From: an uncultured Pseudomonadota bacterium
GTDB lineage: Bacteria; Pseudomonadota; Alphaproteobacteria; RF32; CAG-239
Direction: 5' to 3'
Assembly (NCBI GenBank): GCA_902793695.1
Contig: CADBEI010000006.1
Coordinates: 38,978-79,263 of the forward strand
Length of the DNA: 40,286 bases
Shown: positions 5,047-40,286 of the stretch, piece after piece
Numbering within the stretch: position 1 is the stretch's first letter
How the letters are laid out: the number at the start of each line of letters is the position of its first letter
Notes under the pieces: generated by a model
Told to the model about the DNA's origin: nothing
Database searches by the model: none
The model's input: only the letters and a program-made list of their open reading frames with translations
Program-made: the position numbers and the translations under genes

Positions 5047-8000
5047 TTACTTATATTGAGCGAGGTGTTCTAACAACGCTCTCTTTTCATCCACATTAGC
5101 TTGAGCCTTATTCAAGAGCATATTGTAACGCTCCGGATTGGCTTTATTGACTACTTGGAAGCGGGTTTCGCTGGCCATAAATTCGGCAAGCGGTTTGCTC
5201 GGAGCTTTAGAATCCAGAGTGAGCGGAGCTTGACCTTCCCTCATATTATCCGGATTATAGCGATAGAGCGGCCAAGAACCGGTTTCAACCGCATTCTTTT
5301 GGTGACCCAAACCTTCTGCCATATTCAAGCCTTGGTTAATGCACGGACAATAAGCAATAATGATGGACGGACCGTTATAAGCCTCCGCCTCGTTCATTGC
5401 TTTGATTACCTGCATATCGTTGGCGCCCATAGCCACTTGTGCAACATAAACATTACCGTAAGACATGGCAATCATACCCAAATCTTTTTTCGGTAATTCT
5501 TTACCGGCAGTGGCAAATTTAGCGGATGCACCCATCGGAGTAGCCTTTGATTGTTGACCGCCGGTGTTGGAATATACGCCGGTATCAACCACCAAGATAT
5601 TGACGTTGCGACCGCTGGCAATAGCGTGGTCAACGCCGCCGAAACCGATATCATAAGCCCAACCGTCGCCGCCGATAATCCATACGGATTTCTTAATCAG
5701 ATAGTCGGCAACTTCGCTTAAATGCTTGGCTTCATCGCTATTGATGGCAGCCAATTTGGTACGCAAAGCGGCAACATTATCACGTTGAGCATCAATTTCC
5801 ACATCGTTTGATTGCGGATTAGCCAAAATTTTATCGGCAATATCGCCCAATTTATCTTTCATTGCCTCAAGCAAAGATTTTGCGGTTTCAGTTTCGTGGT
5901 CGATAGAAATTCTCATACCCAAACCGAATTCGGCATTATCCTCAAACAAAGAATTGGCCCAAGCCGGTCCGTGACCTTTTTCATCCTTGCAATACGGAGT
6001 AGTCGGCAGGTTACCGGAATAAATTGAAGAACAACCGGTTGCATTGGCAATAACCATACGGTCGCCGAACAACTGTGTCAGCAATTTAATGTACGGAGTT
6101 TCGCCGCAGCCTGCGCAAGCACCGGAATATTCAAACAGCGGTTGAATGAGTTGAGTTGTCTTCGGCATATTCTTAACCACATCGGTACGTTTAACATACG
6201 GTAAAGTTTCAAAGAACTTCCAGTTAGCTTTTTCAACCTCAAGATGATTTTCAATGTGGTCCATATTGATGGCGTGCAATTCCGGATTTTCCTTATTCTT
6301 GGCCGGACAAGCGGTGACACATACGCCGCAACCGGTACAATCTTCCGGAGAAATTTGCAAAATAAATTGCTTACCGGCAAATTCCTTACCCTTATAATCA
6401 ACATGTTTCAAAGTAGCCGGAGCGCCTGCAAATTGAGCATCGTCAGCCACTTTCATTCTGATTACGCCGTGCGGGCATACGATTGAGCATTTACCGCATT
6501 GAATACAAGTGTTCGGATCCCAAACCGGAACTTCGGTAGCGATACAACGCTTTTCAAACTGCGTGGTAGCGGTCGGCCAAGTGCCGTCAACAACTGTCTG
6601 CAATTCCGATGTTTTAATGCTGTCACCCTTGTCGGCAATCAATTTTGCGGTCAAACCCTGAACAAATTCAGGAGCGTTGGCCGGAACCGGTGCCAAACGA
6701 TGGAAGGTGGAAGTAACGTGATCCGGATACTTAACTTCAAACATATGTTCGAGTGAAGCATCAACCGCGGCATAGTTCTTTTGAACAACCGCATCACCCT
6801 TCTTGGAATAAGTCTTTTTAATCGCGGCTTTAATTTGTGCAATAGCCTCATCTTTCGGCAAAATATTGGAAATTGCAAAGAAACAGGTCTGCATAACCGT
6901 GTTAATGCGTTGTCCCATACCGGTGGCACGCGCAACTTCCACTGCGTTAATTGTGTAGAACTTCAGGTGCTTAGCCAAGATTTGTTCTTGTACTTCAATC
7001 GGCAGCTGGTCCCAAACTTCTTCTGCTTTATACGGAGCATTCAATAAGAATGTGGCACCGTCTTTGGCAATATGCAGAATGTCAACTTTTTTCATAAATT
7101 GGAATTGGTGACAAGCCACAAAATCAGCCTGATTAATCAAATAAGCCGAGCGAATCGGATTATCCGAAAAACGCAAGTGAGATGTAGTCATAGAGCCGGA
7201 TTTACGAGAGTCGTAAACAAAATAGCCCTGACCGTATTTACCGGCATCTTCGGCAATAATCTTAATTGAGTTTTTGTTGGCGCCGACCGTACCATCTGCA
7301 CCTAAACCGAAGAATACGGCACGAACCACATCATTCGGCTCAACGTCAAACGACGCATCATAAGCCAGAGATTTATGAGTCAAATCATCTTCAATACCGA
7401 CGGTAAAGCCGTTAATCGGCGCAGCCGCAACCGCATTGTCAAATACAGCCTTAGCCATAGCCGGTGTAAACTCTTTGGAAGACAAACCGTAGCGACCGCC
7501 GTAAATCTTTGGCAACGCGGCGATTTTGCCGTTGCTGTAAGCTTGCGACAAAGCGGTAACCACATCCAAATACAACGGTTCACCGAGGGAGCCTGCTTCT
7601 TTGGTTCTATCCAAAACCGAAACAACTTTTGCGGTTTTCGGCAGAGCTTTTAAGAAAGATTCTGTCGGGAACGGACGATATAAATGAACTTTCAAAACGC
7701 CGAGTTTGGCACCGTGTGCATTGAGGTATTCAATGGCTTCCTCCACTGTTTCGGCACCTGAGCCCATAACTACGACAACATTTTCGGCATCAGCCGCACC
7801 GGTATAGTCAACAACGTGATATTGACGGCCGGTAATCTTGGCAAACTTATCCATTTCTTCCTGAACAATGCCTTCAACTTTGGCATAATACGGATTTGCC
7901 GCTTCACGGCCTTGGAAAAATACATCCGGATTTTGGGCCGTACCGCGAACAACCGGATTTTCCGGGCGCAGTGCGTGTTCGGCATTGAACTTGTAGTTAA

Positions 8001-8595
8001 CGCCGTCAAGCATAGCTTTCAAATCATCATCGGAAAGCAATTTAACTTTTTTGATTTCGTGCGAAGTGCGGAAACCGTCAAAGAAATGCATAAACGGAAC
8101 GCGCGAACGCAAAGTAGAGGTTTGCGCAATAGCGGCCATATCGCCGGCTTCTTGCACCGAATTGGAACACAACATGGCAAAACCGGTCTGACGGCAACCC
8201 ATAACATCGGAGTGATCGCCGTAAATCGATAAAGCATGATAAGCGAGCGAACGAGCCGCAACATGCATAACAAACGGCATCAATTCGCCGGCGATTTTAT
8301 ACATATTCGGAATCATTAACAGCAAACCTTGCGAAGCCGTAAAGGTGGTGGTTAAAGCACCGGCCTGTAACGAACCGTGGCAAGCACCGGCAGCACCGGC
8401 TTCGGATTGCATTTCCTGAATGGTAGGAGAAACTCCCCAAAGATTCTTTTGTTTGGCGGCAGACCACGCATCAGCCCACTCACCCATCGGAGACGACGGC
8501 GTAATCGGGTAAATCACGCAGACTTCATTCATACGATGTGCTACGGAAGCACAGGCTTCGTTGGCATCCATCATTTTCATTTTTACATCTGACAT
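5047..8595 (-). CDS. nifJ: Pyruvate:ferredoxin (flavodoxin) oxidoreductase, single chain
   Basis: At 1182 residues this has the usual length of the homodimeric enzyme. It oxidises pyruvate with CoA to acetyl-CoA and CO2 and reduces ferredoxin or flavodoxin. The N-terminus (DANEACASVAHRMNEVC, then YPITPSSPMGEW) is the typical pyruvate-binding domain I. Two 4Fe-4S ferredoxin motifs follow: CIQCGKCSIVCP near residue 697 and CTGCGVCVTACP near residue 751. CAGCGET near residue 825 supplies cysteine ligands of the third cluster. The thiamine diphosphate site is GDGWAYDIGFGG with a downstream DTGVYSNTGGQ, from about residue 977. The start has AAGGA eight bases upstream. It is a single-gene unit with its own promoter and a structured 3' region. 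It implies anaerobic pyruvate metabolism. Confidence 0.96.
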   Translation of the reverse strand: MSDVKMKMMDANEACASVAHRMNEVCVIYPITPSSPMGEWADAWSAAKQKNLWGVSPTIQEMQSEAGAAGACHGSLQAGALTTTFTASQGLLLMIPNMYKIAGELMPFVMHVAARSLAYHALSIYGDHSDVMGCRQTGFAMLCSNSVQEAGDMAAIAQTSTLRSRVPFMHFFDGFRTSHEIKKVKLLSDDDLKAMLDGVNYKFNAEHALRPENPVVRGTAQNPDVFFQGREAANPYYAKVEGIVQEEMDKFAKITGRQYHVVDYTGAADAENVVVVMGSGAETVEEAIEYLNAHGAKLGVLKVHLYRPFPTESFLKALPKTAKVVSVLDRTKEAGSLGEPLYLDVVTALSQAYSNGKIAALPKIYGGRYGLSSKEFTPAMAKAVFDNAVAAAPINGFTVGIEDDLTHKSLAYDASFDVEPNDVVRAVFFGLGADGTVGANKNSIKIIAEDAGKYGQGYFVYDSRKSGSMTTSHLRFSDNPIRSAYLINQADFVACHQFQFMKKVDILHIAKDGATFLLNAPYKAEEVWDQLPIEVQEQILAKHLKFYTINAVEVARATGMGQRINTVMQTCFFAISNILPKDEAIAQIKAAIKKTYSKKGDAVVQKNYAAVDASLEHMFEVKYPDHVTSTFHRLAPVPANAPEFVQGLTAKLIADKGDSIKTSELQTVVDGTWPTATTQFEKRCIATEVPVWDPNTCIQCGKCSIVCPHGVIRMKVADDAQFAGAPATLKHVDYKGKEFAGKQFILQISPEDCTGCGVCVTACPAKNKENPELHAINMDHIENHLEVEKANWKFFETLPYVKRTDVVKNMPKTTQLIQPLFEYSGACAGCGETPYIKLLTQLFGDRMVIANATGCSSIYSGNLPTTPYCKDEKGHGPAWANSLFEDNAEFGLGMRISIDHETETAKSLLEAMKDKLGDIADKILANPQSNDVEIDAQRDNVAALRTKLAAINSDEAKHLSEVADYLIKKSVWIIGGDGWAYDIGFGGVDHAIASGRNVNILVVDTGVYSNTGGQQSKATPMGASAKFATAGKELPKKDLGMIAMSYGNVYVAQVAMGANDMQVIKAMNEAEAYNGPSIIIAYCPCINQGLNMAEGLGHQKNAVETGSWPLYRYNPDNMREGQAPLTLDSKAPSKPLAEFMASETRFQVVNKANPERYNMLLNKAQANVDEKRALLEHLAQYK

Positions 8596-25998: not shown

Positions 25999-26373
25999 TT
26001 ATATTGCAATCGACCATAAACCGTGCAAATTACAATATTCATAGACCTTCAGCAGTTTATCGCCGTCGGCCACATAAAAATCCGCGGCAGGCTTTTCTTC
26101 CGGTTGTAAATATTTAATCTGTACGCCGTTTTGAGTTTCCAACGCAATCCATTGAATAAAGTGCGCCGCAATCATCGGATGGTCAACACTGCCGATGTTG
26201 ACGTGAATTTTGTTCCCCTCGCGGCTCCAAACCGGCACATGTTTTTCTGTCGCGGCATCGACGGTATTTTCGGTTAAACACTCCATTTCTTCGCCGCAAC
26301 AAATCATCGGCACACCGGATTTATGCATCATCATAACCAGATTGCCACAGTGTTTACATTTATAAAATTCCAT
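25999..26373 (-). CDS. dfx: Desulfoferrodoxin / superoxide reductase
   Basis: This 124-residue protein carries both iron centres. The desulforedoxin-like N-terminal centre has C6, C9, C25 and C26. The superoxide reductase centre has H45 in EKHVP, H65 and H71 in VDHPMIAAH, and C114 and H117 in CNLHG, the full His4-Cys set. It reduces superoxide to peroxide without making oxygen and is typical of anaerobes. Its ATG overlaps the stop codon of the upstream periplasmic-protein gene (TAATG); GGAGAA within that gene's end serves as its ribosome site. Confidence 0.95.
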   Translation of the reverse strand: MEFYKCKHCGNLVMMMHKSGVPMICCGEEMECLTENTVDAATEKHVPVWSREGNKIHVNIGSVDHPMIAAHFIQWIALETQNGVQIKYLQPEEKPAADFYVADGDKLLKVYEYCNLHGLWSIAI

Positions 26374-27356
26374 TAATTTTCTCCTTCCGACTGTTGTTTA
26401 TTATTTTTAGCGCAATAATCGTTTTGCTGCAGATAATACATCAAAGCAATATCGGCATCGCGCACCTCTTTCGGCCGCTCATCAAGCGGTATATCGTCCT
26501 CATTGTGCTTGGCTACGATATCTTTAAAATACGGCAACAATTCATCGACGGTTTCTTGCGGCAAACGACAGGTATAACCGTAATCTTCCGTCACATCCTC
26601 AAAATCGAGCCGTAATTTATTTTGCAAATAAATAAAGCAGATATTGTCATTATATTCTGCATTCAAACCGCGTGTAACCGATGCATCCGGCAGTCTTTCG
26701 TCTTCTTCAAGCCCGAAATATTCTTCTTTGCGTGAGCAACTGTCCAGTGCATAAATTAATCCGTCATACACATACTTCGGTAAATATTTATAATGCGCCA
26801 CATCCTTGTTTTTTACCAAAATTTCCAAATCATCAAACCCGTGAATATTATTAAGCAAGGTCTTCGGTACATTAAGTTCATAATTACCGTATTTCAAACG
26901 ACAGTTTTTATCGCGCTCTCCGATAATTTTCAGTTCCATTCTTTCGCGTACTGCTCTATCCGGACGACAGGCAATAAGCGCTTCCATAAATTCCGGCTCA
27001 AATACTTCAACTTTAACTTCCGGTTCCTGTTCATTTACGTTCAATGTCGGCTGTTGCAATTCATCAGATTGTTGACTTTCACTCGGTGACACGATTATGT
27101 TACCCGCAGGAGTATCGTTGGTATTTTGTAATTTATTGATTTTCGGCATTTCTTCGGTATCAACATTCTGCATCTGCTCGATTGTACTTTCGTCTGCTTC
27201 ATTATTGACCTCGGGGCTTGCAACCACCGCCAAACTTTTAACATCTGCCGGATCATCACCCAACATTTTCTGCGGTATTTGCGCTTGTGCCGAAAATGCA
27301 ATCACTCCCGCACAAAACAACAACCATATTACTGTTTTACCGTACATTTGCCGCAT
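26373..27356 (-). CDS. Periplasmic protein of unknown function
   Basis: The protein has 327 residues with a signal peptide ending in AQA (about residue 25). An acidic, Gln/Asn-rich low-complexity region follows (about 30-125), then a folded C-terminal part with paired cysteines. Two stretches resemble each other loosely (near residues 140-190 and 215-290, each ending in a P-x-T-L-L or P-x-E-T-V-D-E-L-L helix), which hints at a duplicated domain. The true start is 27356, with GGAGG five bases upstream, although the frame is open to 27533. It is translationally coupled to dfx. I do not recognise the family. Confidence 0.78.
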   Translation of the reverse strand: MRQMYGKTVIWLLFCAGVIAFSAQAQIPQKMLGDDPADVKSLAVVASPEVNNEADESTIEQMQNVDTEEMPKINKLQNTNDTPAGNIIVSPSESQQSDELQQPTLNVNEQEPEVKVEVFEPEFMEALIACRPDRAVRERMELKIIGERDKNCRLKYGNYELNVPKTLLNNIHGFDDLEILVKNKDVAHYKYLPKYVYDGLIYALDSCSRKEEYFGLEEDERLPDASVTRGLNAEYNDNICFIYLQNKLRLDFEDVTEDYGYTCRLPQETVDELLPYFKDIVAKHNEDDIPLDERPKEVRDADIALMYYLQQNDYCAKNNKQQSEGEN

Positions 27357-27787
27357 TTTATCCTCCTTAAGATGTTTTATCTCAAGCGACAGTATAATAA
27401 ATATATCATAAAAATAAAACATTTTTATTATTTTATACATAAAAAGAAAGGAGCCGTCATAAATAAACGCTCCTTCCTTCCGCCTTGTTGCGAGTGTTTC
27501 AACGGCAAAAAATAATACGCAAACATTGAACAATCCGACAACACAGGCCTGACACGCAGCATATCCGGTAAAATAATTATTGTAATTATTTAATCTGTTA
27601 CGATGCTTATGTGCCGATTCTCCCCGATTGTTTAGAGTTTAATTGCTTAAAAACATCACAATCCGTCAAGAACAGCATAGATATATAGCAACAACCGGCG
27701 TTTTCAATCATTCCCCGACCAAAGAACATATTTTGCTTGCAAGATTGTGGCGGATATGGTATATTTCGGTCTGCAGAAAGGAAAGAA
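27357..27787. other. Divergent intergenic region
   Basis: About 430 bases lie between the divergent genes starting at 27356 (minus) and 27788 (plus). It holds the plus-strand promoter at 27737-27765 and a 7-bp hairpin AAGGAGC/GCTCCTT near 27449-27476. An A/T palindrome lies around 27571-27592. I see no ORF with a ribosome site and no recognisable RNA. Confidence 0.5.
27737..27765 (+). promoter_or_regulatory. Promoter of the MORN-repeat protein gene
   Basis: TTGCAA (27737-27742), 17-base spacer, TATATT (27760-27765). The leader to ATG 27788 is about 15 nt and contains AAGGA. Confidence 0.65.
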
Positions 27788-29443
27788 ATGTCGGTTGCTT
27801 ATAAGGAAACAATCAAAAAAGAAGGTTGGGGTCATAAAGAAGTTGTCCGTCGTTATGATAACGGCGACATTGAGGAGCTTTCGACCGAATACGACCAACG
27901 CCGCCAATGCGATAAAATACTCCATCGCACCGTTAAACATTCCGACGGCTCCACGGAAAGCTATAATCAATGGAATCAACTGGAACATCGGACTTTGAGT
28001 GACGGCACCACACTCAATTATAATAATGGTATTTTACATACCAAATGTTTATCCGACGGCACAAGAGAAGAATATTTCGACAACGGGCAGATTTCTTTAT
28101 ATAAAAATTCCGACGGATCATTGATAATGAGCTATTATGAAAATGGCGAAAAGTCTATGACAGCAGACTATAAAAACAAACATTTTATCGCCTACTCCGC
28201 CGATGGCGAGATCAAATTTAACTTAACGCCGGAGCAATCTTTTATAAATGAAAAATACTACCCGATTATAAAACTCGGAATAAAAGACCGTAATTATGAA
28301 AATCACTGGCGTGAAGATATTGTACTTAATCCGCATAAAAAAACAATACTGTTCTTTGGCGGACATGCCACTTATAACGGCAAAGACGCCAACGGTTATC
28401 TTAACTCGGTGATTGATATTTTCGGTATGTCCGGCGCACAGATTGCCGACACGCAACTTGTATCCGCTTATCGTTCTCTAAAACACGAAACACTTGGACA
28501 CTATATATCTTTGACCGACAACGGATTTGATATAAGAGAATATAAAAAACAAACATATAAAAAAGAGATTTTATCAAAACTTATGCCGTTTATGGCGCAA
28601 CAATACAACGGCGTTTGGGAGCGTATTCCGCCGCAGCAATTATATGCCAATTTCCGTAACCTTATGCTGATGTGTCACTGCTACGGCGCCCAAGATATCT
28701 GCACGGTAGCTGATGTTTTGCGGCAGACTATGACCAAACTAGGTTACAATCCCGAGGTACAAAAGCACGCCTTGCGGCAAGTTGTTTGCATAACCAACAA
28801 CACTCCGCGCGAGTTTAATGACAACACCGGATTTACCACATTTCATCGCTATTCGGTTTTTGACGGACAATGGAGAAAACAGTATGATAAGCAATACTCC
28901 GACGATTATCCTGTATTTTTGGAGAATTATCCGGCGTTTCATCATTATAAAAAATCAAAAGCCGCTTTCGTTAACTTAAATAAAAATGAGATATTGTTGG
29001 TCTTTAACAAAGTTTTGCGTTATAAATGCGATATGGATGAGCATAATTCCGCCTTTTGGACAGTTGATAAAAAAATATTGACTTCCGCCGGCAAAATGCA
29101 AGCCGAGCTTATCAAAAGTATCGGTCGGCGTTGGCTTGAGAATAACAACGAAATAACTGGCGCCGCCGATTTTATGAAACAAAGCACACAAAATCTGAAA
29201 CTGCGCCAACAAGTCTCCGCCGCTCTCATCAACGGGCGTAAGTTACAAAAAGATAAAATCAATCCGCTGCATAATCACTCGATTTTAAGTTCAGCATATG
29301 AAAAATACAAAAGCATGGGATTTTCTCCGGAAAAACACGGCGTCTGGAAACTGCTGTCCGAACAGGCAAAAAAAGATACTCCGCAAGAAACATATACAAG
29401 AATGTATATGGATGTGCTGCTTAACCTTAAGGCGCGCAACTAA
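27788..29443 (+). CDS. MORN-repeat protein with a large unrecognised C-terminal domain
   Basis: This 551-residue protein has no signal peptide or membrane segment. Residues about 15-150 carry MORN_2-type repeats (Y-F-D-N-G-Q-I, Y-Y-E-N-G-E-K, S-D-G-T/S-x-x-x-Y). Residues about 180-551 are a separate domain with a hydrophobic strand and glycine turn KTILFFGGHATYNG, and a later LMLMCHCYGAQDI that looks like a nucleophile elbow with Cys or Tyr in place of Ser. An alpha/beta-hydrolase-like or papain-like fold is possible but not shown. ATG 27788 is chosen for AAGGA before it. The 3' end overlaps the convergent acetyltransferase gene by 17 bases. Confidence 0.75.
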   Translation: MSVAYKETIKKEGWGHKEVVRRYDNGDIEELSTEYDQRRQCDKILHRTVKHSDGSTESYNQWNQLEHRTLSDGTTLNYNNGILHTKCLSDGTREEYFDNGQISLYKNSDGSLIMSYYENGEKSMTADYKNKHFIAYSADGEIKFNLTPEQSFINEKYYPIIKLGIKDRNYENHWREDIVLNPHKKTILFFGGHATYNGKDANGYLNSVIDIFGMSGAQIADTQLVSAYRSLKHETLGHYISLTDNGFDIREYKKQTYKKEILSKLMPFMAQQYNGVWERIPPQQLYANFRNLMLMCHCYGAQDICTVADVLRQTMTKLGYNPEVQKHALRQVVCITNNTPREFNDNTGFTTFHRYSVFDGQWRKQYDKQYSDDYPVFLENYPAFHHYKKSKAAFVNLNKNEILLVFNKVLRYKCDMDEHNSAFWTVDKKILTSAGKMQAELIKSIGRRWLENNNEITGAADFMKQSTQNLKLRQQVSAALINGRKLQKDKINPLHNHSILSSAYEKYKSMGFSPEKHGVWKLLSEQAKKDTPQETYTRMYMDVLLNLKARN

Positions 29444-32936: not shown

Positions 32937-33156
32937 GTTTTATGTATAATGATATTCTATAATTGATTTATTATTTATTGAATTGGGTTTATAGTGGCCT
33001 GATGATAAATGTAAGATAAGTCAAGCTTGATGTTCGTTAGAGTAAAGCAGATTGTCTGTCTGGCGGCTGCTTTACGGCAGTTGTTATGTTTCCTTAGACA
33101 ATCTTCACTAATTTTTGCCTACGGGAAACAGGGCGAGACTTCCAAAATTTTACATT
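32937..33156 (+). promoter_or_regulatory. Long structured 5' leader with mutually exclusive stems
   Basis: Between the perfect promoter and ATG 33157 lies about 220 nt. GTAAAGCAG (33042-33050) pairs perfectly with CTGCTTTAC (33067-33075). AGATTGTCT (33049-33057) pairs perfectly with AGACAATCT (33096-33104). Both stems need bases 33049-33050, so both cannot form fully at the same time. That layout is typical of attenuators or ligand- or protein-controlled leaders. I do not recognise a known riboswitch class. The stretch before the ATG has no Shine-Dalgarno. Confidence 0.5.
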
Positions 33157-34206
33157 ATGGATTCTACAAAAATGTTCGCACCGAAAATGGTGCCGGTTTC
33201 CACCGTGTGCAGTTACATTGTGTATTACACCGGTGCAATCTTCTGGTTTTTAGTGCTTTTCAACCCACTCTCGATTTTCTTGATTAATCTCTTCAAACCT
33301 TCTTTGTCGGCCAAAATGGCGCACAGCAAAACCTATTGCGGCGACACAATCTGCGGGTTCTACACTTATTTGGCTCTCAAATGGCCTTTTAAGTGGGCAA
33401 AATGGTGGATTCCGCTGGATAAGCTGCATGAATACACCGTGCGCGAGCAGGAAATCTATTTCAATGAAATAGATCGCCGCAAGGAAGTTCTGTGGGCTTT
33501 GAGTCCGGAGGCTTGGGCAAGTCTGATGAAAAACATCTACGTCTACCCGTTCAAGATGTTGGCCGAGGGCTTGAGAGAACACAACGATTTGTTTGCGGCA
33601 CTTATTAATCTGACTTCCGAAGAAGGTAAGGAACGCGAGCTCTTAAAGCAGTATATGCATTACGGAGCATTGCCGAAACCGCAGATGGAAATTCTGGTTG
33701 ACAAAGTACGCGAAGAAAGCTCTCAAGGCAAGCACGAGGTGTTGTTCCGCATTTTGTGTGATTACATCGTGCGTTGCGGTTTCAGCAGGGAGATGACGGA
33801 GCGAATTATCAATGACGATGCGGTATCGCAGTTGCTCAAAGATAAGGTTGCCGACAGCATCACGGCTCATAACCAGCGCGTTCAGACCAGAAATCTCTCT
33901 GACTTAGCCACTCTTGAACAGGTTGAATTATGGCAGAAATTCTGCCAAACCAACCAGAAAATTCATCCGATAGCCCAGCAGGAAATGAGCCTCAACCAGT
34001 ATGCCATGTTTCACAAGTACGGTCACGAGCTTGATGCCGGTGCAATCTCCTATCTGTTGTGGCACGGCGATGAGAAAATGGCTGAGCATATTTTCCGCAA
34101 TGAGCCGAAGTTCGGTATTCTGAATAAGAATATCGAGTTTGTGCTGGATAAGCACGAATACTTGCGTCCGCTGTTGCAGAAGGTTATGGCTGAAGCAACA
34201 AATTAA
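33157..34206 (+). CDS. Unrecognised membrane-anchored helical protein
   Basis: The protein has 349 residues. One long N-terminal hydrophobic region (about 16-46, enough for one or two helices) is followed by a mainly helical, charged body. In that body, units of about 30-40 residues recall HEAT-like repeats (L-x-x-Y-x-x-Y-G-A-L, L-F-R-I-L-C-D-Y-I-V, I-S-Y-L-L-W-H-G-D-E). No catalytic motif is seen. ATG 33157 is the start chosen; the frame is open to TTG 33115, which lies within the structured leader. There is no Shine-Dalgarno. Codon use favours AAG and CTG, unlike nagB next door. I do not recognise a family. Confidence 0.7.
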   Translation: MDSTKMFAPKMVPVSTVCSYIVYYTGAIFWFLVLFNPLSIFLINLFKPSLSAKMAHSKTYCGDTICGFYTYLALKWPFKWAKWWIPLDKLHEYTVREQEIYFNEIDRRKEVLWALSPEAWASLMKNIYVYPFKMLAEGLREHNDLFAALINLTSEEGKERELLKQYMHYGALPKPQMEILVDKVREESSQGKHEVLFRILCDYIVRCGFSREMTERIINDDAVSQLLKDKVADSITAHNQRVQTRNLSDLATLEQVELWQKFCQTNQKIHPIAQQEMSLNQYAMFHKYGHELDAGAISYLLWHGDEKMAEHIFRNEPKFGILNKNIEFVLDKHEYLRPLLQKVMAEATN

Positions 34207-34218
34207 AAACCTGATTAC

Positions 34219-34254
34219 AAAAAAGCTGTTGGAGTAAAATCCGACGGCTTTTTT
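34219..34254 (+). terminator. Terminator of the 33157 gene
   Basis: A 15-bp stem with two G-U pairs (34219-34233 with 34240-34254), outer A6/T6 tracts and 6-nt loop, followed by GTTTTT. Confidence 0.9.
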
Positions 34255-34424
34255 GTTTTTAAATAGTATAAAAAACCTTGACTTTTGGTAATATTCGTCC
34301 ACAATAATTCTTATCAGTAATATTATGAAGTTATCATTAGAAAATGTTTTTCTGCTTAGGCAGGAAATACATATATATTGTTTCACAAATAGCCGGTGCT
34401 CGTAAAAGCCGGGAAAAATTATTT

Positions 34425-35162
34425 ATGAGAAAAAACATCTATGGCGTGTTCCGCTCATTGCGTCATTTCGGCGTTTCGGAAAAGGAAGTGGAGAAGATTG
34501 CCGATGCTTACAAAACATGGCTTTCATTCCCCATTGAAGAGAAAAGCCCGTACAGTTGGGTTTATTACCTCAACGGCAGGTTGATTTCCATACCCTTCTC
34601 TGTCAAGCAGTTGTTTGAAGATCATTTGATCGGTTATGCTGTCAGGAACAAAGTATTTATGTTCTTGCACGCCGAAGATGTCCGCTGGAATGAGGTTGAG
34701 GCTCAGTTGCAAGATCTGAAGCGTTTGCTCGACGCCCGAATGCTCGGTGCTGACGGAAATGCCGACCTTAAGGTGCATCTCCCGACGGCTAAAGAGGCAT
34801 CCATGTTCTTCACCACGTTTGCCAACAACTGGTTGGAAAATGTTAAGGCTACCGCCGGAGAGATTATCGAGCAGTTACCGGATGACGACGCTTATGAGCT
34901 GCAGTTCCCCGTCACCAACCAGATTCCGAAGATGTGGATTGCACCGTCTGCCGATGAACCCGAGATGACAGCCATCAAGTTTGGGTTCAACGCCTCCGGA
35001 CCATACTGCAAGAAGTACCGTCCGAGTGCCAAAGCCAAGATGGCGCTTACCCTGATTACAGATCTCCGTGAGGGAGATTTCGTCGGAAAACTCACCAAAT
35101 ACGGTGTACCAACTAAGGCGACCATAGACATGTTCTATGAGTTACTTTCTAAAAGGTATTAA
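34425..35162 (+). CDS. Unrecognised soluble protein
   Basis: The protein has 245 residues, with no signal peptide or membrane segment. The N-terminal 40 residues form helices (FRSLRHFGVSEKEVEKIADAY) and may be a small helix-turn-helix-like domain, followed by mixed alpha/beta sequence. ATG 34425 is chosen because ATTATTT directly before it matches the leader type of the neighbours; the frame is open further up to 34344. TTGACT at 34278 is a possible -35 box, but its -10 partner is poor. CAGT-AT-ATTATGAAGTT at 34315-34332 recurs in front of the 35687 gene. Function unknown. Confidence 0.7.
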   Translation: MRKNIYGVFRSLRHFGVSEKEVEKIADAYKTWLSFPIEEKSPYSWVYYLNGRLISIPFSVKQLFEDHLIGYAVRNKVFMFLHAEDVRWNEVEAQLQDLKRLLDARMLGADGNADLKVHLPTAKEASMFFTTFANNWLENVKATAGEIIEQLPDDDAYELQFPVTNQIPKMWIAPSADEPEMTAIKFGFNASGPYCKKYRPSAKAKMALTLITDLREGDFVGKLTKYGVPTKATIDMFYELLSKRY

Positions 35163-35169
35163 AAAAAAG

Positions 35170-35196
35170 ACGCTTGAGGCTAATCACCTCAGGCGT
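35170..35196 (+). terminator. Terminator of the 34425 gene
   Basis: A 10-bp stem (ACGCTTGAGG with CCTCAGGCGT, one T-G pair) with a 7-nt loop, preceded by A's and followed by TTTTTGTGT. It begins eight bases after the stop codon. Confidence 0.85.
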
Positions 35197-35224
35197 TTTT
35201 TGTGTCTAAATTTAAAAATAATTC

Positions 35225-35253
35225 TTGATTTTTTAAAAATTACAATTTATATT
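35225..35253 (+). promoter_or_regulatory. Promoter of the 35290 gene
   Basis: TTGATT (35225-35230), 17-base spacer, TATATT (35248-35253). The following leader has CAATTATTTATTTAT and then GGCTT directly before ATG, close to the leader of the 24723 gene. Confidence 0.65.
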
Positions 35254-35289
35254 CGCCTCCAAATTCAATTATTTATTTATTTTTGGCTT

Positions 35290-35493
35290 ATGAAAAATGT
35301 AAATGCAATTCTTCTCTGTATGATGAGAAAAAAGCGCGGAAACTGGGAAAAAACTCAAGAAATTATCGGTCATGAAATTATGACGAAGTTTGAAACTGCC
35401 GGCTATTTGAGTCGTATCGGTAACGACTGGCAAATCAACCCGCAAGAACGAGCTATGGCCGTGCGAGCCATGTTTTCCCGCAGTTGTTTTTGA
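35290..35493 (+). CDS. Small unrecognised protein (67 residues)
   Basis: This is a basic, helical protein: residues about 18-45 (WEKTQEIIGHEIMTKFETAG, then Y-L-S-R-I-G) suggest a helix-turn-helix or winged-helix core, which would suit DNA binding, but no family is recognised. ATG 35290 is chosen because it follows a complete promoter and a leader of the same type as its neighbours; the frame is open to 35137, which would overlap the previous gene and its terminator. There is no Shine-Dalgarno. Confidence 0.6.
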   Translation: MKNVNAILLCMMRKKRGNWEKTQEIIGHEIMTKFETAGYLSRIGNDWQINPQERAMAVRAMFSRSCF

Positions 35494-35550
35494 ATTTGCA
35501 ATAATCGTCGTCGTTATTTATTACATTTAGCTTAAACTTTGAAAAGAAAC

Positions 35551-35584
35551 CGTCTGAAGTACATCGCTTCAGACGCTTTTTTTT
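35551..35584 (+). terminator. Terminator of the 35290 gene
   Basis: A perfect 9-bp stem CGTCTGAAG with CTTCAGACG (35551-35559 with 35567-35575) followed by CTTTTTTTT. Confidence 0.88.
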
Positions 35585-35602
35585 GATATATGACAAAAAA
35601 TC

Positions 35603-35631
35603 TTGACTTTAACGTATTTTAGTATGATATT
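35603..35631 (+). promoter_or_regulatory. Promoter of the 35687 gene
   Basis: TTGACT (35603-35608), 17-base spacer, GATATT (35626-35631). Four bases later begins CAGTTATTTTAATTATGAAG (35636-35655), which matches the region behind the 34278 -35 box and partly that behind the 24650 promoter. Confidence 0.55.
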
Positions 35632-35686
35632 GAAACAGTTATTTTAATTATGAAGTTTTTTTTATTATTATCCAAAATATTTATTT

Positions 35687-36286
35687 ATGAATCAAAGTAT
35701 TGAGCAAAATGGCAAAAACCGCTGGTTTACGCCGGAAATTACAACAATGATGGACAACATTATGAAAGAAAAATGGTTTGTCCGTGAGGTGATATACCCT
35801 AAAAAAATCAAAGGGTGTGAAATCTTTGACTATAACGGCTGTATGCGGTTGTATCACAATTCTGCTCGCTTTTTTGCCCTCGACGGCGAAAAGTTGAATT
35901 CTGAGGCCGGTAAATACTGCAATTTGAATGTTGACTTTTTCAGCGCCGAAAAAATCATTATTCAACAACGTGATGAAACGGCGTTTGATCATTGGTGCAA
36001 CAGCGACCCGTTTGAGTTGACGTCGCTTTGGCCGGAAAGGCAGTTGGTTATTGCCGCCCGCCACGATACTAAACAGCTTATTGCTTTTGCCCCGATATTT
36101 GTGGTGTGCACTCCCGAGCTTCATACCACCGGAGATATGAGAAAATCCTTTAGTTTTGAAAAGGAGTTCAATACCTATCGGAATCGCGCAGAAAAGATAC
36201 TCGGTAAAAAAGACTCTTCGGAATCTCTGTCATTTCTGAAAAATTCGTATGATTTATCGAATTGGCTCAGAATCCATTGTTACTAA
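35687..36286 (+). CDS. Unrecognised soluble protein
   Basis: The protein has 199 residues, with no signal peptide or membrane segment. It is of mixed alpha/beta character, rich in aromatic residues, with four cysteines spread over the chain (CEIFDYNGC, KYCNLN, HWCNSD). No catalytic motif is recognised. The leader ends in ATATTTATTT directly before ATG, with no Shine-Dalgarno. It is the last of the four-gene block; its terminator overlaps the end of nagA. Function unknown. Confidence 0.7.
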   Translation: MNQSIEQNGKNRWFTPEITTMMDNIMKEKWFVREVIYPKKIKGCEIFDYNGCMRLYHNSARFFALDGEKLNSEAGKYCNLNVDFFSAEKIIIQQRDETAFDHWCNSDPFELTSLWPERQLVIAARHDTKQLIAFAPIFVVCTPELHTTGDMRKSFSFEKEFNTYRNRAEKILGKKDSSESLSFLKNSYDLSNWLRIHCY

Positions 36287-36294
36287 ATTCGGAA

Positions 36295-36327
36295 AAACCG
36301 CTTAAAGACAATGTCTTTAGGCGGTTT
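36295..36327. terminator. Bidirectional terminator between the 35687 gene and nagA
   Basis: A 15-bp stem with one wobble pair (36295-36309 with 36313-36327) and a 3-nt loop. Its right arm includes the last codons and stop codon of nagA. On the minus strand it runs into TTTTT, a good terminator for nagA; on the plus strand the T-tract is weaker. Confidence 0.75.
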
Positions 36328-37465
36328 CTTTGCCTTTTTGATAAATTCTGCCTTGAATGATGGTATACAATACATTAAGCTTTTCGCTCAAAATCGTAAT
36401 GTCAGCATCATACCCCGGAGCAATCACTCCCAAATGGTCCTGTTTCATAATACGCGCCGGATTGGTTGAAGCCATATGTACTGCTTGTTCCAAATTAAAC
36501 CCGTATGATACGATATTACGCACACTGTCGAGCATAGTCAGTGCCGAACCGGCAATGGCATTATCCGATTTACGATAAAAACACTGGTCTAAATACACTT
36601 CCTCCCCGTTGGCTATCAGCGGTTTGGTTTTCTGCTTGGTCGGTTTTAAGGCATCAGTTACCAGCACCACCTTATCCAGTGACTTACAAGTCAGCAAAAA
36701 CTTGATAATTTCGGGATTGATATGAATCCCGTCGGCAATAATTTCGCACGATAATTCCGGATGAATAAACACTGCTCCCACCGTCCCCGGATCGCGATGA
36801 TGCATACGGCTCATGGCGTTGAACAAATGCGTAACATGCATAATCCGTGCCTGCATGGCCTCAATCATCTGCTTATAATTGGCATTGGTGTGTCCGGCCT
36901 GTAATACAATGCCTTTGGAAAGACAATAAAGTGCCAGTTCGCGCATATTGTGTAACTCCGGTGCTACCGTCATGTTGATAATATGTCCTTCGGAAGCTTC
37001 CCATAAGGCATCCATCAAATCCAAATCCACCGGACTGACACTTTCCGGCGATTGTACGCCCAAACGCTGCGGTGAAATAAACGGACCTTCGAGATGAATA
37101 CCCAAAATCCGCGCTCCTTTTTCTCCGCGTATCATCTGCACTTTGTTGCCGGAATACAGCGTCGGAATAAACGAAGTCACGCCGTAGTGCAACAAACCTT
37201 CCGACATTTTAAGTATGGATTTATCCGAGCAATCTTCGGTACCGTATCCGCCAAAACCGTGAATATGCGTATCCACAAACCCCGGCATTACATTGGCCCC
37301 CTTGGCGTCAATAAAGTTTGTATCCGCTTTGAAAATCTTTTTATTGAAACGTTCTTCGTTAAAAACATCAATGATTTTATTCTGTTTAATCAGCACGGCG
37401 CAATTTTGCATACGCGAATATCCGTTAAACACCGTGGCGTTATGAATACAAGTTGCGGCAACCAT
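36317..37465 (-). CDS. nagA: N-acetylglucosamine-6-phosphate deacetylase
   Basis: This 382-residue amidohydrolase removes acetate from GlcNAc-6-phosphate, giving the substrate of NagB. Motifs in order: GFVDTHIHG with H67 and H69, the metal-binding E126 in GIHLEGPF, H-x-N-A at about 196 in AGHTNA, H-L-F-N-A-M near 214-220, and the catalytic Asp in VLVTDAL near residue 270. The start has GGGAGG upstream. It is upstream of nagB on the same strand but separated from it by the four-gene insertion, so the two cannot share a simple transcript past the terminator at 36295-36327. Confidence 0.96.
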   Translation of the reverse strand: MVAATCIHNATVFNGYSRMQNCAVLIKQNKIIDVFNEERFNKKIFKADTNFIDAKGANVMPGFVDTHIHGFGGYGTEDCSDKSILKMSEGLLHYGVTSFIPTLYSGNKVQMIRGEKGARILGIHLEGPFISPQRLGVQSPESVSPVDLDLMDALWEASEGHIINMTVAPELHNMRELALYCLSKGIVLQAGHTNANYKQMIEAMQARIMHVTHLFNAMSRMHHRDPGTVGAVFIHPELSCEIIADGIHINPEIIKFLLTCKSLDKVVLVTDALKPTKQKTKPLIANGEEVYLDQCFYRKSDNAIAGSALTMLDSVRNIVSYGFNLEQAVHMASTNPARIMKQDHLGVIAPGYDADITILSEKLNVLYTIIQGRIYQKGKETA

Positions 37466-37601
37466 AAAAACCTCCCGTTTTATAAGTGTTTTATAACACC
37501 CAAAATTTTAATTTACAACCCCTTTATTTTTTTGCCGATTTAACTTTATGTTAACACTAAAAAAATATACTTACGGAAGTAATTACTAAAAGGATATAGC
37601 C

Positions 37602-40286
37602 ATGAAGTATACCCGTACTGCCTTGGGATTGCTCACGCGTCAATACCGTAGTGTTTTGAAAAAATGTTTATTAATCAACTTAGGCTTATTTATGTCGGCG
37701 GCTCCGGCAAACGCAGCGACTACTGTCACTACGTATGATGCTTTGTTGGCGGCTCTGAATGCGTCATCGACGGCAGATGTGATATTAAACCGTAACGGCT
37801 CCGGAATAACTATTACCGGCGACGGCTTTGAAATATCCGCCAATCAAAAAGTGGCATTAAAAAACATCGGCACTGCCGGTTCTTCTTCTTGGACTAACGG
37901 CAGCGGTACGGACTACGAACACAGAATTCCGTCAAATATGTTTGTTTGGAACGTCGGCGGCACATTATCTATGGACAACGTTATAATTGATAATCCTTAT
38001 ATCAGTTTCAATGATGACGGTAATACCTCCGTCGGAATTATCCGTAACAAAGGCGGACATGTAAAAGGCATTACCAATACAAGTATCACTAACGCCTATA
38101 TCACCACCTACGACCCGGGCTTCGGACCATTCGGCGGCGTTATTTTGAATTATAACGGCGGTACTGTTGATTTAATTCAAAACGTAACCATAAAAAACAT
38201 AACCGTCGCTCCGAAATCAAACGCCCCGCACGGCGGAGCCATTGAAAATACGGGTTATACATCCCTAATCAAAAAAATAGATAACGTAACCATAGAAAAC
38301 GTTACCCTGATTACCCACAATGCCATAAATGATGACGATAAAAACCGCGGTGGCGGCGGAAATCACGGAGTTCTGGAAAATCAAACGGCGGCCGGTATGG
38401 GAGATATATCCAATCTCACCATGAAAAACAACTTTCTTTATCGCCCCGGAAATTATGTACCGGGAGACTACGCGAATAACCACGCTTCGGCGGCCGGTCT
38501 CTATAATTTGGGCGGAATAAATTCCATTACCGATTCCATATTCCAAGGTAATCATACCAAAACCGAATGGAATAAAGCCAATGCCAGTGACGGTGCTTTA
38601 CTTAACCTGTCTATGGGTACGAATGACCAAACATCTACCCGTCGCGGTCGTATTGAAAAGATAGATAATGTACAATTTATCGGCAATTATACGGAAAGTG
38701 CCGCTTCGTCTTCCGGCGGTGCCATGGGCAGCGGTGTAAACAGAAACGGCTATTCCTATTTATTTACTCCGTATATCGGCGAAATGACCAATGTTACTTT
38801 TGAGGGTAACTATGCTCACGGATACGCGGATGCGGTTGCCGGCGCACTTTCCAATACGGGTTATATCGGAAAAATAAGCGGCGAATTTACCCGCAATTAT
38901 GCTAAATCCGACACATCGTACGCCTATGGCGGTGCACTGAAAAACAGCGGTATACAACTTGAAGACGGCTTGACAATTTCTTCCACCATCGGAGAAATAA
39001 TTGCCGATTTTACCGAAAACTATACACTTGCCATGCAAGATGCATACGGCGGCGCCATATATAATGTATCCGGCGTAAACGGTATTACGGCAATAACTTC
39101 CGTTACAGCCAAACAAAACGGCTTTACCGGCAATTATACAAAATCCACCGGAGTCGGTTATTATGCCGCCGGCGGAGCAATTTATGGCAGTCGGTCCACA
39201 ATCGAGAACATTAACGCAAATTTCTCGGCAAACTATGCCGAAGCAAAAGGAAGAGCTGCCGGTGGTGCCATCAATGTTAACAGGGATGCAGCCATCAATA
39301 CCATCACCGGAAATTTCAGCAACAACTATGCCAAATCCGTCGGTACCGGTCTCGGTGAAGGGGATAAAACCTATGCCCGCGGCGGAGCCATATTCAATGT
39401 CGGTTATATCAAAAAAATATCCGGTAACTTTACTCAAAACAGTGCTCAATCCGCAGGCATTGAAGCGTACGGCGGTGCTGTTTATCAAATGTACAGCGAC
39501 GCTTATTCTTTGGGAATTGATGAAATTTCCGGTACATTTCAGGGCAACTACGCTCTTGCCACCAATTCAGCCGGACTTGCCAAAGGCGGTGCGATTTATA
39601 ACGGCGAAAATATGCAGATTACCGTTACCGGTTCAAATTTTATCGACAACTATGCGCAAGCAGGCTCTTCTGCTTTAGGCGGTGCGATTTATAATGTCGG
39701 AAATATTACTTTCAGCGGCACCAATACTTTTTCAAATAACTATCAACAAGTCGGCTCAACCAAAACCTTTAACGATATATATAATGAAGGCACGATTACC
39801 GTCAGCGCCAACGGTACACTCACTATCAACGACGGCATTACCGGCGATAACGGTGCCGTTACGCTGAACAGCAGTTCCAAAATCAACTTGAATGCCGTAC
39901 TCAGCGGAAATATCATAACCTTAAACAGAGCCGGAATAATTTACGGTTCTTATACCCCAACAGGTGGTAGCAAAACTTATGGCAATATGAACATATTGGC
40001 TTTAACCGTCGGTTCCGCTGCCGGCAGTGCTCTTAACAGTGCCAATTCATATATTGCCAATTCGACACTCGGTACGGTAAATTTAAGCTCTGATTTAAAT
40101 TACACTCTTGATATTAACGCCGCAAACAAAACAGCGGATAAGTTGATTGTAAGCGGGGTTGCTTCCGGCTCGAGCGGTAAAGTAAGCATCAACAGCTTTA
40201 ATGTTTTGGGAAGCACTTCTTTTGCCGACATTACCGACAAGAATTTCAAAGTACAGATATTGCAGGCTCCGAATGCCAATATTCAA
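37602..40286 (+). CDS. Pmp-like autotransporter/adhesin passenger, 3' end outside the window
   Basis: One frame is open from ATG 37602 (AAGGA nine bases before it) to the last base, 895 codons without a stop. The protein starts with a long signal peptide (about 39 residues, ending PANAA) with a basic, extended N-region common in autotransporters. The rest is a beta-helix passenger. About a dozen units carry GGA-I/L/V (GGAIYNV, GGAIFNV, GGALKNS) and F-x-x-N (FTRNYA, FSANYA, FTQNSA, FQGNYA), the hallmark pair of chlamydial polymorphic membrane proteins. From about residue 720 the sequence changes to a Ser/Gly/Asn-rich helix typical of autotransporter stalks. The beta-barrel would lie beyond the window. 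A possible -10 (TATACT) is at 37566-37571. Confidence 0.88.
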   Translation, partial: MKYTRTALGLLTRQYRSVLKKCLLINLGLFMSAAPANAATTVTTYDALLAALNASSTADVILNRNGSGITITGDGFEISANQKVALKNIGTAGSSSWTNGSGTDYEHRIPSNMFVWNVGGTLSMDNVIIDNPYISFNDDGNTSVGIIRNKGGHVKGITNTSITNAYITTYDPGFGPFGGVILNYNGGTVDLIQNVTIKNITVAPKSNAPHGGAIENTGYTSLIKKIDNVTIENVTLITHNAINDDDKNRGGGGNHGVLENQTAAGMGDISNLTMKNNFLYRPGNYVPGDYANNHASAAGLYNLGGINSITDSIFQGNHTKTEWNKANASDGALLNLSMGTNDQTSTRRGRIEKIDNVQFIGNYTESAASSSGGAMGSGVNRNGYSYLFTPYIGEMTNVTFEGNYAHGYADAVAGALSNTGYIGKISGEFTRNYAKSDTSYAYGGALKNSGIQLEDGLTISSTIGEIIADFTENYTLAMQDAYGGAIYNVSGVNGITAITSVTAKQNGFTGNYTKSTGVGYYAAGGAIYGSRSTIENINANFSANYAEAKGRAAGGAINVNRDAAINTITGNFSNNYAKSVGTGLGEGDKTYARGGAIFNVGYIKKISGNFTQNSAQSAGIEAYGGAVYQMYSDAYSLGIDEISGTFQGNYALATNSAGLAKGGAIYNGENMQITVTGSNFIDNYAQAGSSALGGAIYNVGNITFSGTNTFSNNYQQVGSTKTFNDIYNEGTITVSANGTLTINDGITGDNGAVTLNSSSKINLNAVLSGNIITLNRAGIIYGSYTPTGGSKTYGNMNILALTVGSAAGSALNSANSYIANSTLGTVNLSSDLNYTLDINAANKTADKLIVSGVASGSSGKVSINSFNVLGSTSFADITDKNFKVQILQAPNANIQ

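Follow-up and report, generated by a model that had tools for sequence, protein, structure and literature searches.

In chlamydial polymorphic membrane proteins (Pmps), the tetrapeptide motifs GGA and FxxN form the buried packing of the beta-helix rungs, with loops projecting from one face, and the middle region of these proteins carries an Asp at rung 0 (PMC10715098, in part). The Pfam family that represents the repeat, Chlam_PMP (PF02415), is present in over 100 non-chlamydial species (PMC10715098, in part), and chlamydial proteins account for 443 of the 1448 PF02415 proteins, i.e., less than one third (PMC11166332, in part). The motif pair can therefore not be regarded as the defining repeat of chlamydial Pmps, which is how it had been treated in a reading of the present DNA made from the sequence alone (hereafter, the sequence-only reading). 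Long signals of autotransporters have been described by an N1-H1-N2-H2 scheme (PMC2805444, in part); signals of the ESPR type exceed 50 residues and include an extension of 25 residues (PMC8151025, in part).

The locus described here lies at the end of the window, which is the whole stretch of DNA that was analysed (40,286 nucleotides). We consider it very likely that its reading frame covers the first third, or up to half, of a giant type Va autotransporter with an expected length of about 2000-2800 aa. The passenger belongs to a known kind of protein; the variant part is the extension of the signal peptide.

Results

The frame spans 895 codons without a stop (37602-40286, + strand) and was annotated, based on the ORF, the contig end and relatives, as the 5' portion of a gene for a type Va autotransporter that runs off the contig. 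According to the ORF list, the frame is open up to the window edge, which agrees with the sequence-only reading of a protein of more than 895 residues. The window occupies positions 38978-79263 of contig C6. Because this edge is also the end of contig C6 (position 79263), the gene is truncated by the assembly and not merely by the window. A probable ribosome-binding site, AAAAGGA, was identified by eye at 37588-37594 (+ strand), and the frame starts 136 bases from a divergent neighbour, a gene named nagA-like by eye (36317-37465, - strand), which serves as synteny anchor. A sigma-70 scan of positions 37300-37800 found one site, located on the opposite strand, which is fewer than in shuffled sequences. 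In the source genome, the 3' ends of three contigs (C6, C3 and C17) each cut through a signal-bearing frame, which suggests that the assembly tends to break at large, repetitive adhesin genes.

Gene order across 24.6-37.5 kb of the window is collinear with contig C51 of a sister genome (G001), and the gene found there at the corresponding place is divergent from the nagA-like gene and encodes 2541 aa from its ATG. The signal types of the two proteins are alike (61.5% identical across the first 65 residues of the alignment), and the later part of the window protein shows 44-48% identity to the G001 protein; residues 65-260 are without a good counterpart, so that this relative is not colinear throughout. 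The last 350 aa of the G001 protein contain a PF03797 barrel (Pfam, E 3.3e-35). As whole-length Pfam and NCBIfam scans of the 2551-aa G001 frame had missed the barrel that the 350-aa end piece shows, whole-length negatives were distrusted, and the proteins of G001 and of another relative, G003, were scanned in pieces. The G003 protein has 2252 aa and carries PF03797 at E 9.9e-31. Residue 895 of the window protein aligns with residue 633 in G001 and with residue 1185 in G003, suggesting that about 1000-1900 residues are missing from the window protein. A linker-like module at the end of the frame (aa 740-895; 39819-40286, + strand), delimited by alignment to relatives, has four matches within the protein of G001, three within that of G003 and a single one within that of G009.

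Contig C43 of the source genome was found to encode an 85-aa barrel piece that runs off the contig end. In a search of four genomes, the best non-self match of this piece was the G001 gene (81%), followed by the G003 gene (55%); the next best match in G001 reached 40%. When ranked by passenger, the same three genes (G001:C51, G003:C11 and G009:C2) also come first, but with G003 ahead of G001. Since barrel and passenger both rank these three genes first, C43 probably carries the 3' end of the window gene. The genes beyond the barrel on C43 differ from those beyond the G001 gene, which counts against the link, and a comparison of contig ends showed no overlap between C6 and C43 other than chance short matches. 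The sequence-only reading, in which a large surface protein of the autotransporter type follows an extended signal, is well supported by the barrel in G001 and by the matching barrel end on another contig of the source genome; the PF03797 barrel is present in relatives and, as a fragment, on C43, and the window contig ends inside the gene.

Residues 1-38 (37602-37715, + strand) resemble a Sec signal by eye and are conserved across a family with the consensus MKYTRTAIGLLTxQYRSVLKKCxLINxGLFAL. The extended signal peptide that had been proposed was thus recovered, with 38 residues up to a plausible A-x-A cleavage site (after ANA), a conserved positively charged extension and a charged/hydrophobic/charged/hydrophobic layout, the site and the layout being assigned by eye. 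A signal profile was built from 19 copies, of which the source genome supplied 9 and 10 further genomes of the genus one each, and indicated that the signal is lineage-specific. In the source genome, the profile found 12 copies; a thirteenth hit (E 0.5) was set aside. Within the genus, the signal was found in 25 of the 26 genomes searched, and in all 15 of those of good quality; 11 of the 25 positive genomes had themselves supplied profile rows. In a sample of the class, 8 of 385 genomes were positive, including the source genome itself; the remaining seven fall into two different families, and the signal was found in none of the four same-family genomes of other genera in this sample. Only the source genome was positive among 398 genomes in a sample of the phylum. 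A more distant form of the extension was observed in another alphaproteobacterial family (loci L116, L117, L118, L123 and L124), where five of the ten loci examined were positive with the pattern used.

The ESPR family (PF13018) was not found at any of the 12 signal copies, and its single match in the genome, on C8, was below the cut-off (E 0.23). The signal heads PF03797 proteins on contigs C2, C24 and C16 of the source genome and, in relatives, YadA-anchor proteins (G001:C23 and G009:C19); a PF03797 protein on C10 of the source genome is without it. In a comparison of 17 codons, 11 synonymous and 0 nonsynonymous changes separate the window copy from the copy in the C42a gene; the corresponding numbers are 10 and 1 for the G001 gene and 6 and 8 for the copy on C16. 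All 91 pairs of 14 signal sequences give 706 synonymous and 397 nonsynonymous changes. The extension thus seems to be conserved at the protein level and not to result from copying of the DNA, which is clearest in the close pairs. It appears to represent a second family of extended autotransporter signals, distinct in sequence and concentrated in one genus; a limited literature search found no description of it.

Downstream of the signal, the passenger begins with an N-terminal part that has few canonical motifs (aa 39-210; 37716-38231, + strand; delimited in the AlphaFold2 model), followed by a GGA/FxxN beta-helix repeat region (aa 211-715; 38232-39746, + strand) that was defined by motif counts, shuffles and the model. 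Strict counting found 10 GGA[ILVM] and 13 FxxN motifs in the 895-aa frame. In 2000 composition shuffles of residues 40-895, the GGA[ILVM] count averaged 0.3 and never exceeded 3, and the FxxN count averaged 2.9 and never exceeded 10. Eight pairs of the form GGA[ILV]-x(12-23)-FxxN were observed, a count that did not exceed 1 in any of 5000 shuffles. After every one of the 10 GGA motifs, the next motif is FxxN (in one pair at a distance of 99 residues), and consecutive FxxN motifs without a strict GGA between them occur twice, with DGAL and AGAL seen by eye in those places. The sequence-only reading had counted at least 12 units; serial GGA/FxxN motifs far above the shuffles are indeed present, but 12 units are reached only with the near-variants AAGL, DGAL and AGAL.

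The AlphaFold2 model of residues 39-895, which was based on an alignment of four sequences, is a long all-beta rod with half of its residues in strands (mean pLDDT 81.6, pTM 0.86). In this model, the fourth residue of GGAx lies within a strand in 10 of 10 cases, the F of FxxN lies within a strand in 12 of 13 and its N outside strands in 12 of 13; these positions agree with the published buried rung packing. No sequence relatives of the window protein were found in the PDB at 0.1, and a Foldseek search against the PDB gave no matches at E <=0.001. Ag43 and pertactin were among the weak Foldseek matches (E 1.5-1.8), and the best 50 of the 226 weak matches are mostly beta-helix proteins. In a VIA second look, 186 of 339 chains had Z >=8; the best 50 matches, at Z 15.8-19.8, were mostly glycan lyases, glycan hydrolases and phage tailspikes with 7-17% identity, proteins with a parallel beta-helix fold. 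Fewer than one fifth of the VIA rows span model residues beyond 589. Based on the AlphaFold2 model and the VIA second look, the passenger is predicted to form a long parallel beta-helix.

Three unannotated fecal phage records (MT836501.1, MT838037.1 and MT836116.1) match the repeat region with 29-37% identity over 16-33% of the query; these matches are read as shared beta-helix repeats. A phage origin of the locus was rejected, as there was no PHROG match at 0.01.

The proposed alphaproteobacterial source agrees with 18 relatives of the nagA-like protein (73-94% identical to it in their best segment), the titles of which name Alphaproteobacteria in 14 cases, Rhodospirillaceae in 3 and a proteobacterium in 1. 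A sheep or roe deer gut site is named in 7 of the 18 titles, and the source is probably a gut-living alphaproteobacterium. Elsewhere in the window, a pyruvate:ferredoxin oxidoreductase gene was identified with Pfam at 5047-8595, which fits anaerobic life. The segments 26373-29443 and 33115-36286 contain five ORFs for which Pfam gave no match at 1e-5; four of these five are matched in the same G001 region with approximately 59-90% identity, and for the ORF at 34344-35162 no G001 match was listed in the corresponding region.

Outside the window, the source genome contains tandem signal-bearing truncated genes with differing heads, located on C42 (6516 to the contig end at 11550) and on C29 (1-3638). 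The heads include YadA_head repeats in C42a and C29a and PF02415 repeats in C29b. Common 5' blocks of 99-118 nt, comprising the ribosome site and the signal, are 80-93% identical among these cassettes, and the two C29 genes have a common block of 274 nt with 92% identity. The cassettes on C42 and C29 also share a connector encoding NNYYTK, a pattern that occurs five times in the source genome and a single time in G013; a search of 21 other genomes did not find it. On C42, the first two cassettes each give way to the next start, and the third is continued by a long stalk frame; neither of the signal-bearing genes on C29 is joined to a stalk. Two frame breaks on C42, at about 8400 and 11000, affect the last cassette and the stalk; they sit, as seen by eye, at short tandem duplications and may represent assembly error, decay or phase variation. 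The two loci look like N-terminal head cassettes of a trimeric autotransporter, a lead that comes from one fragmented assembly; a limited literature search found no head cassettes of this kind. It is conceivable, though we regard it as unlikely, that the signal extension marks an interchangeable-head system in which recombination swaps the N-terminal heads of one adhesin, with GGA/FxxN as one head type.

Discussion

As a type Va autotransporter, the window protein would be directed through Sec by its 38-residue signal, and the positively charged extension would probably slow or tune export, as ESPR is thought to do. A C-terminal PF03797 barrel, lost at the contig break and expected from the sequences of relatives, would insert into the outer membrane, and the passenger would then emerge and fold as a long parallel beta-helix. 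GGAx and FxxN would hold the rungs together, with variable loops facing outward, if the positions in the model are combined with the role assigned in published Pmp models. The exposed rod would most likely act as an adhesin or self-association rod in a gut community. The analysis directly supports the frame, the motifs, the signal family, the genomic place, the barrel in relatives and the predicted fold; the barrel of this gene on C43, its export behaviour and adhesion are the parts that we infer.

Many of the structural matches of the passenger are alginate lyases, GH110, polygalacturonases and pectate lyases, and the beta-helix could accordingly be that of a surface enzyme, i.e., a polysaccharide lyase or glycoside hydrolase directed against plant or host glycans. 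This appears improbable, since no Pfam or NCBIfam enzyme family was found in the window protein and matches with identities as low as those of the best 50 VIA matches would be expected of any beta-helix. The contig end inside the gene, together with the broken frames that related signal-bearing genes show on C42 and C29, could alternatively indicate a broken or phase-variable gene that, in this strain, yields only a secreted, unanchored passenger. However, the 895 codons present show no break, the start and the ribosome site appear normal, and C43 carries a close barrel end, which makes a broken gene quite improbable.

The presence of both tetrapeptide motifs, largely alternating, in a predicted beta-helix passenger would also be compatible with a true member of the chlamydial Pmp family that was acquired by horizontal transfer, and the PF02415 cut-off is reached by two other genes of the source genome, on C16 and C29, though it was also reached in one of 14 control genomes, Escherichia coli. 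A Chlam_PMP search listed no PF02415 match for the window protein, which has no Pfam match above cut-off; in the best relatives, where the family was listed at all, it scored 12.0-15.0 bits versus a cut-off of 20.6. Pmp-specific Pfam domains were listed neither for the window protein, in which the part that would correspond to the Pmp middle region is missing, nor in the piecewise scans of the G001 and G003 proteins. In addition, the gap from GGA to FxxN is 14-18 residues in 3 of 10 pairs of the window protein versus 75% in Pmps, and the gap from FxxN to GGA is 4-5 residues in 0 of 10 pairs (9-18 in 9 of 10) versus 57% in Pmps (PMC11166332, in part). Because PF02415 is not reached, the spacing differs and the motif is a known beta-helix rung motif outside Chlamydia too, Pmp membership is not supported, and transfer of a Pmp gene seems very improbable indeed. 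The window protein works like a Pmp passenger, yet is not filed as a Pmp; it represents one more non-chlamydial case of the known spread of this repeat and cautions against naming proteins as Pmps from tetrapeptides.

Read as a giant type Va autotransporter, the window protein resembles Ag43 and pertactin in its putative Sec signal, its predicted beta-helix passenger and the C-terminal PF03797 barrel seen in its relatives, but is much longer and has GGA/FxxN rungs and a linker module that is recurrent in the G001 and G003 proteins. With chlamydial Pmps it shares the serial GGA[ILV] and FxxN motifs, the predicted beta-helix passenger and, in relatives, the PF03797 barrel; by comparison, it stays under the PF02415 cut-off, has a longer gap from FxxN to GGA, shows no Pmp-specific Pfam domain in the scans, and has another signal and comes from another bacterial lineage. 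Non-chlamydial GGA/FxxN beta-helix proteins (PF02415; PMC10715098, in part) likewise use the motif pair as rung packing, whereas the window protein is read as a large autotransporter, and its signal extension is lineage-specific. This extension is similar to ESPR in being a conserved charged N-terminal extension with an N1-H1-N2-H2 layout (by eye) that is common to PF03797-type and YadA-type autotransporters. Unlike ESPR, it places about 21 residues (by eye), rather than 25, ahead of the hydrophobic core, is part of a signal of 38-48 aa (19 peptides cut by eye) rather than more than 50, and is undetected by PF13018. The signal family could therefore be used to test for convergence with ESPR on the role of the extension, i.e., slowed Sec export and periplasmic hand-over.
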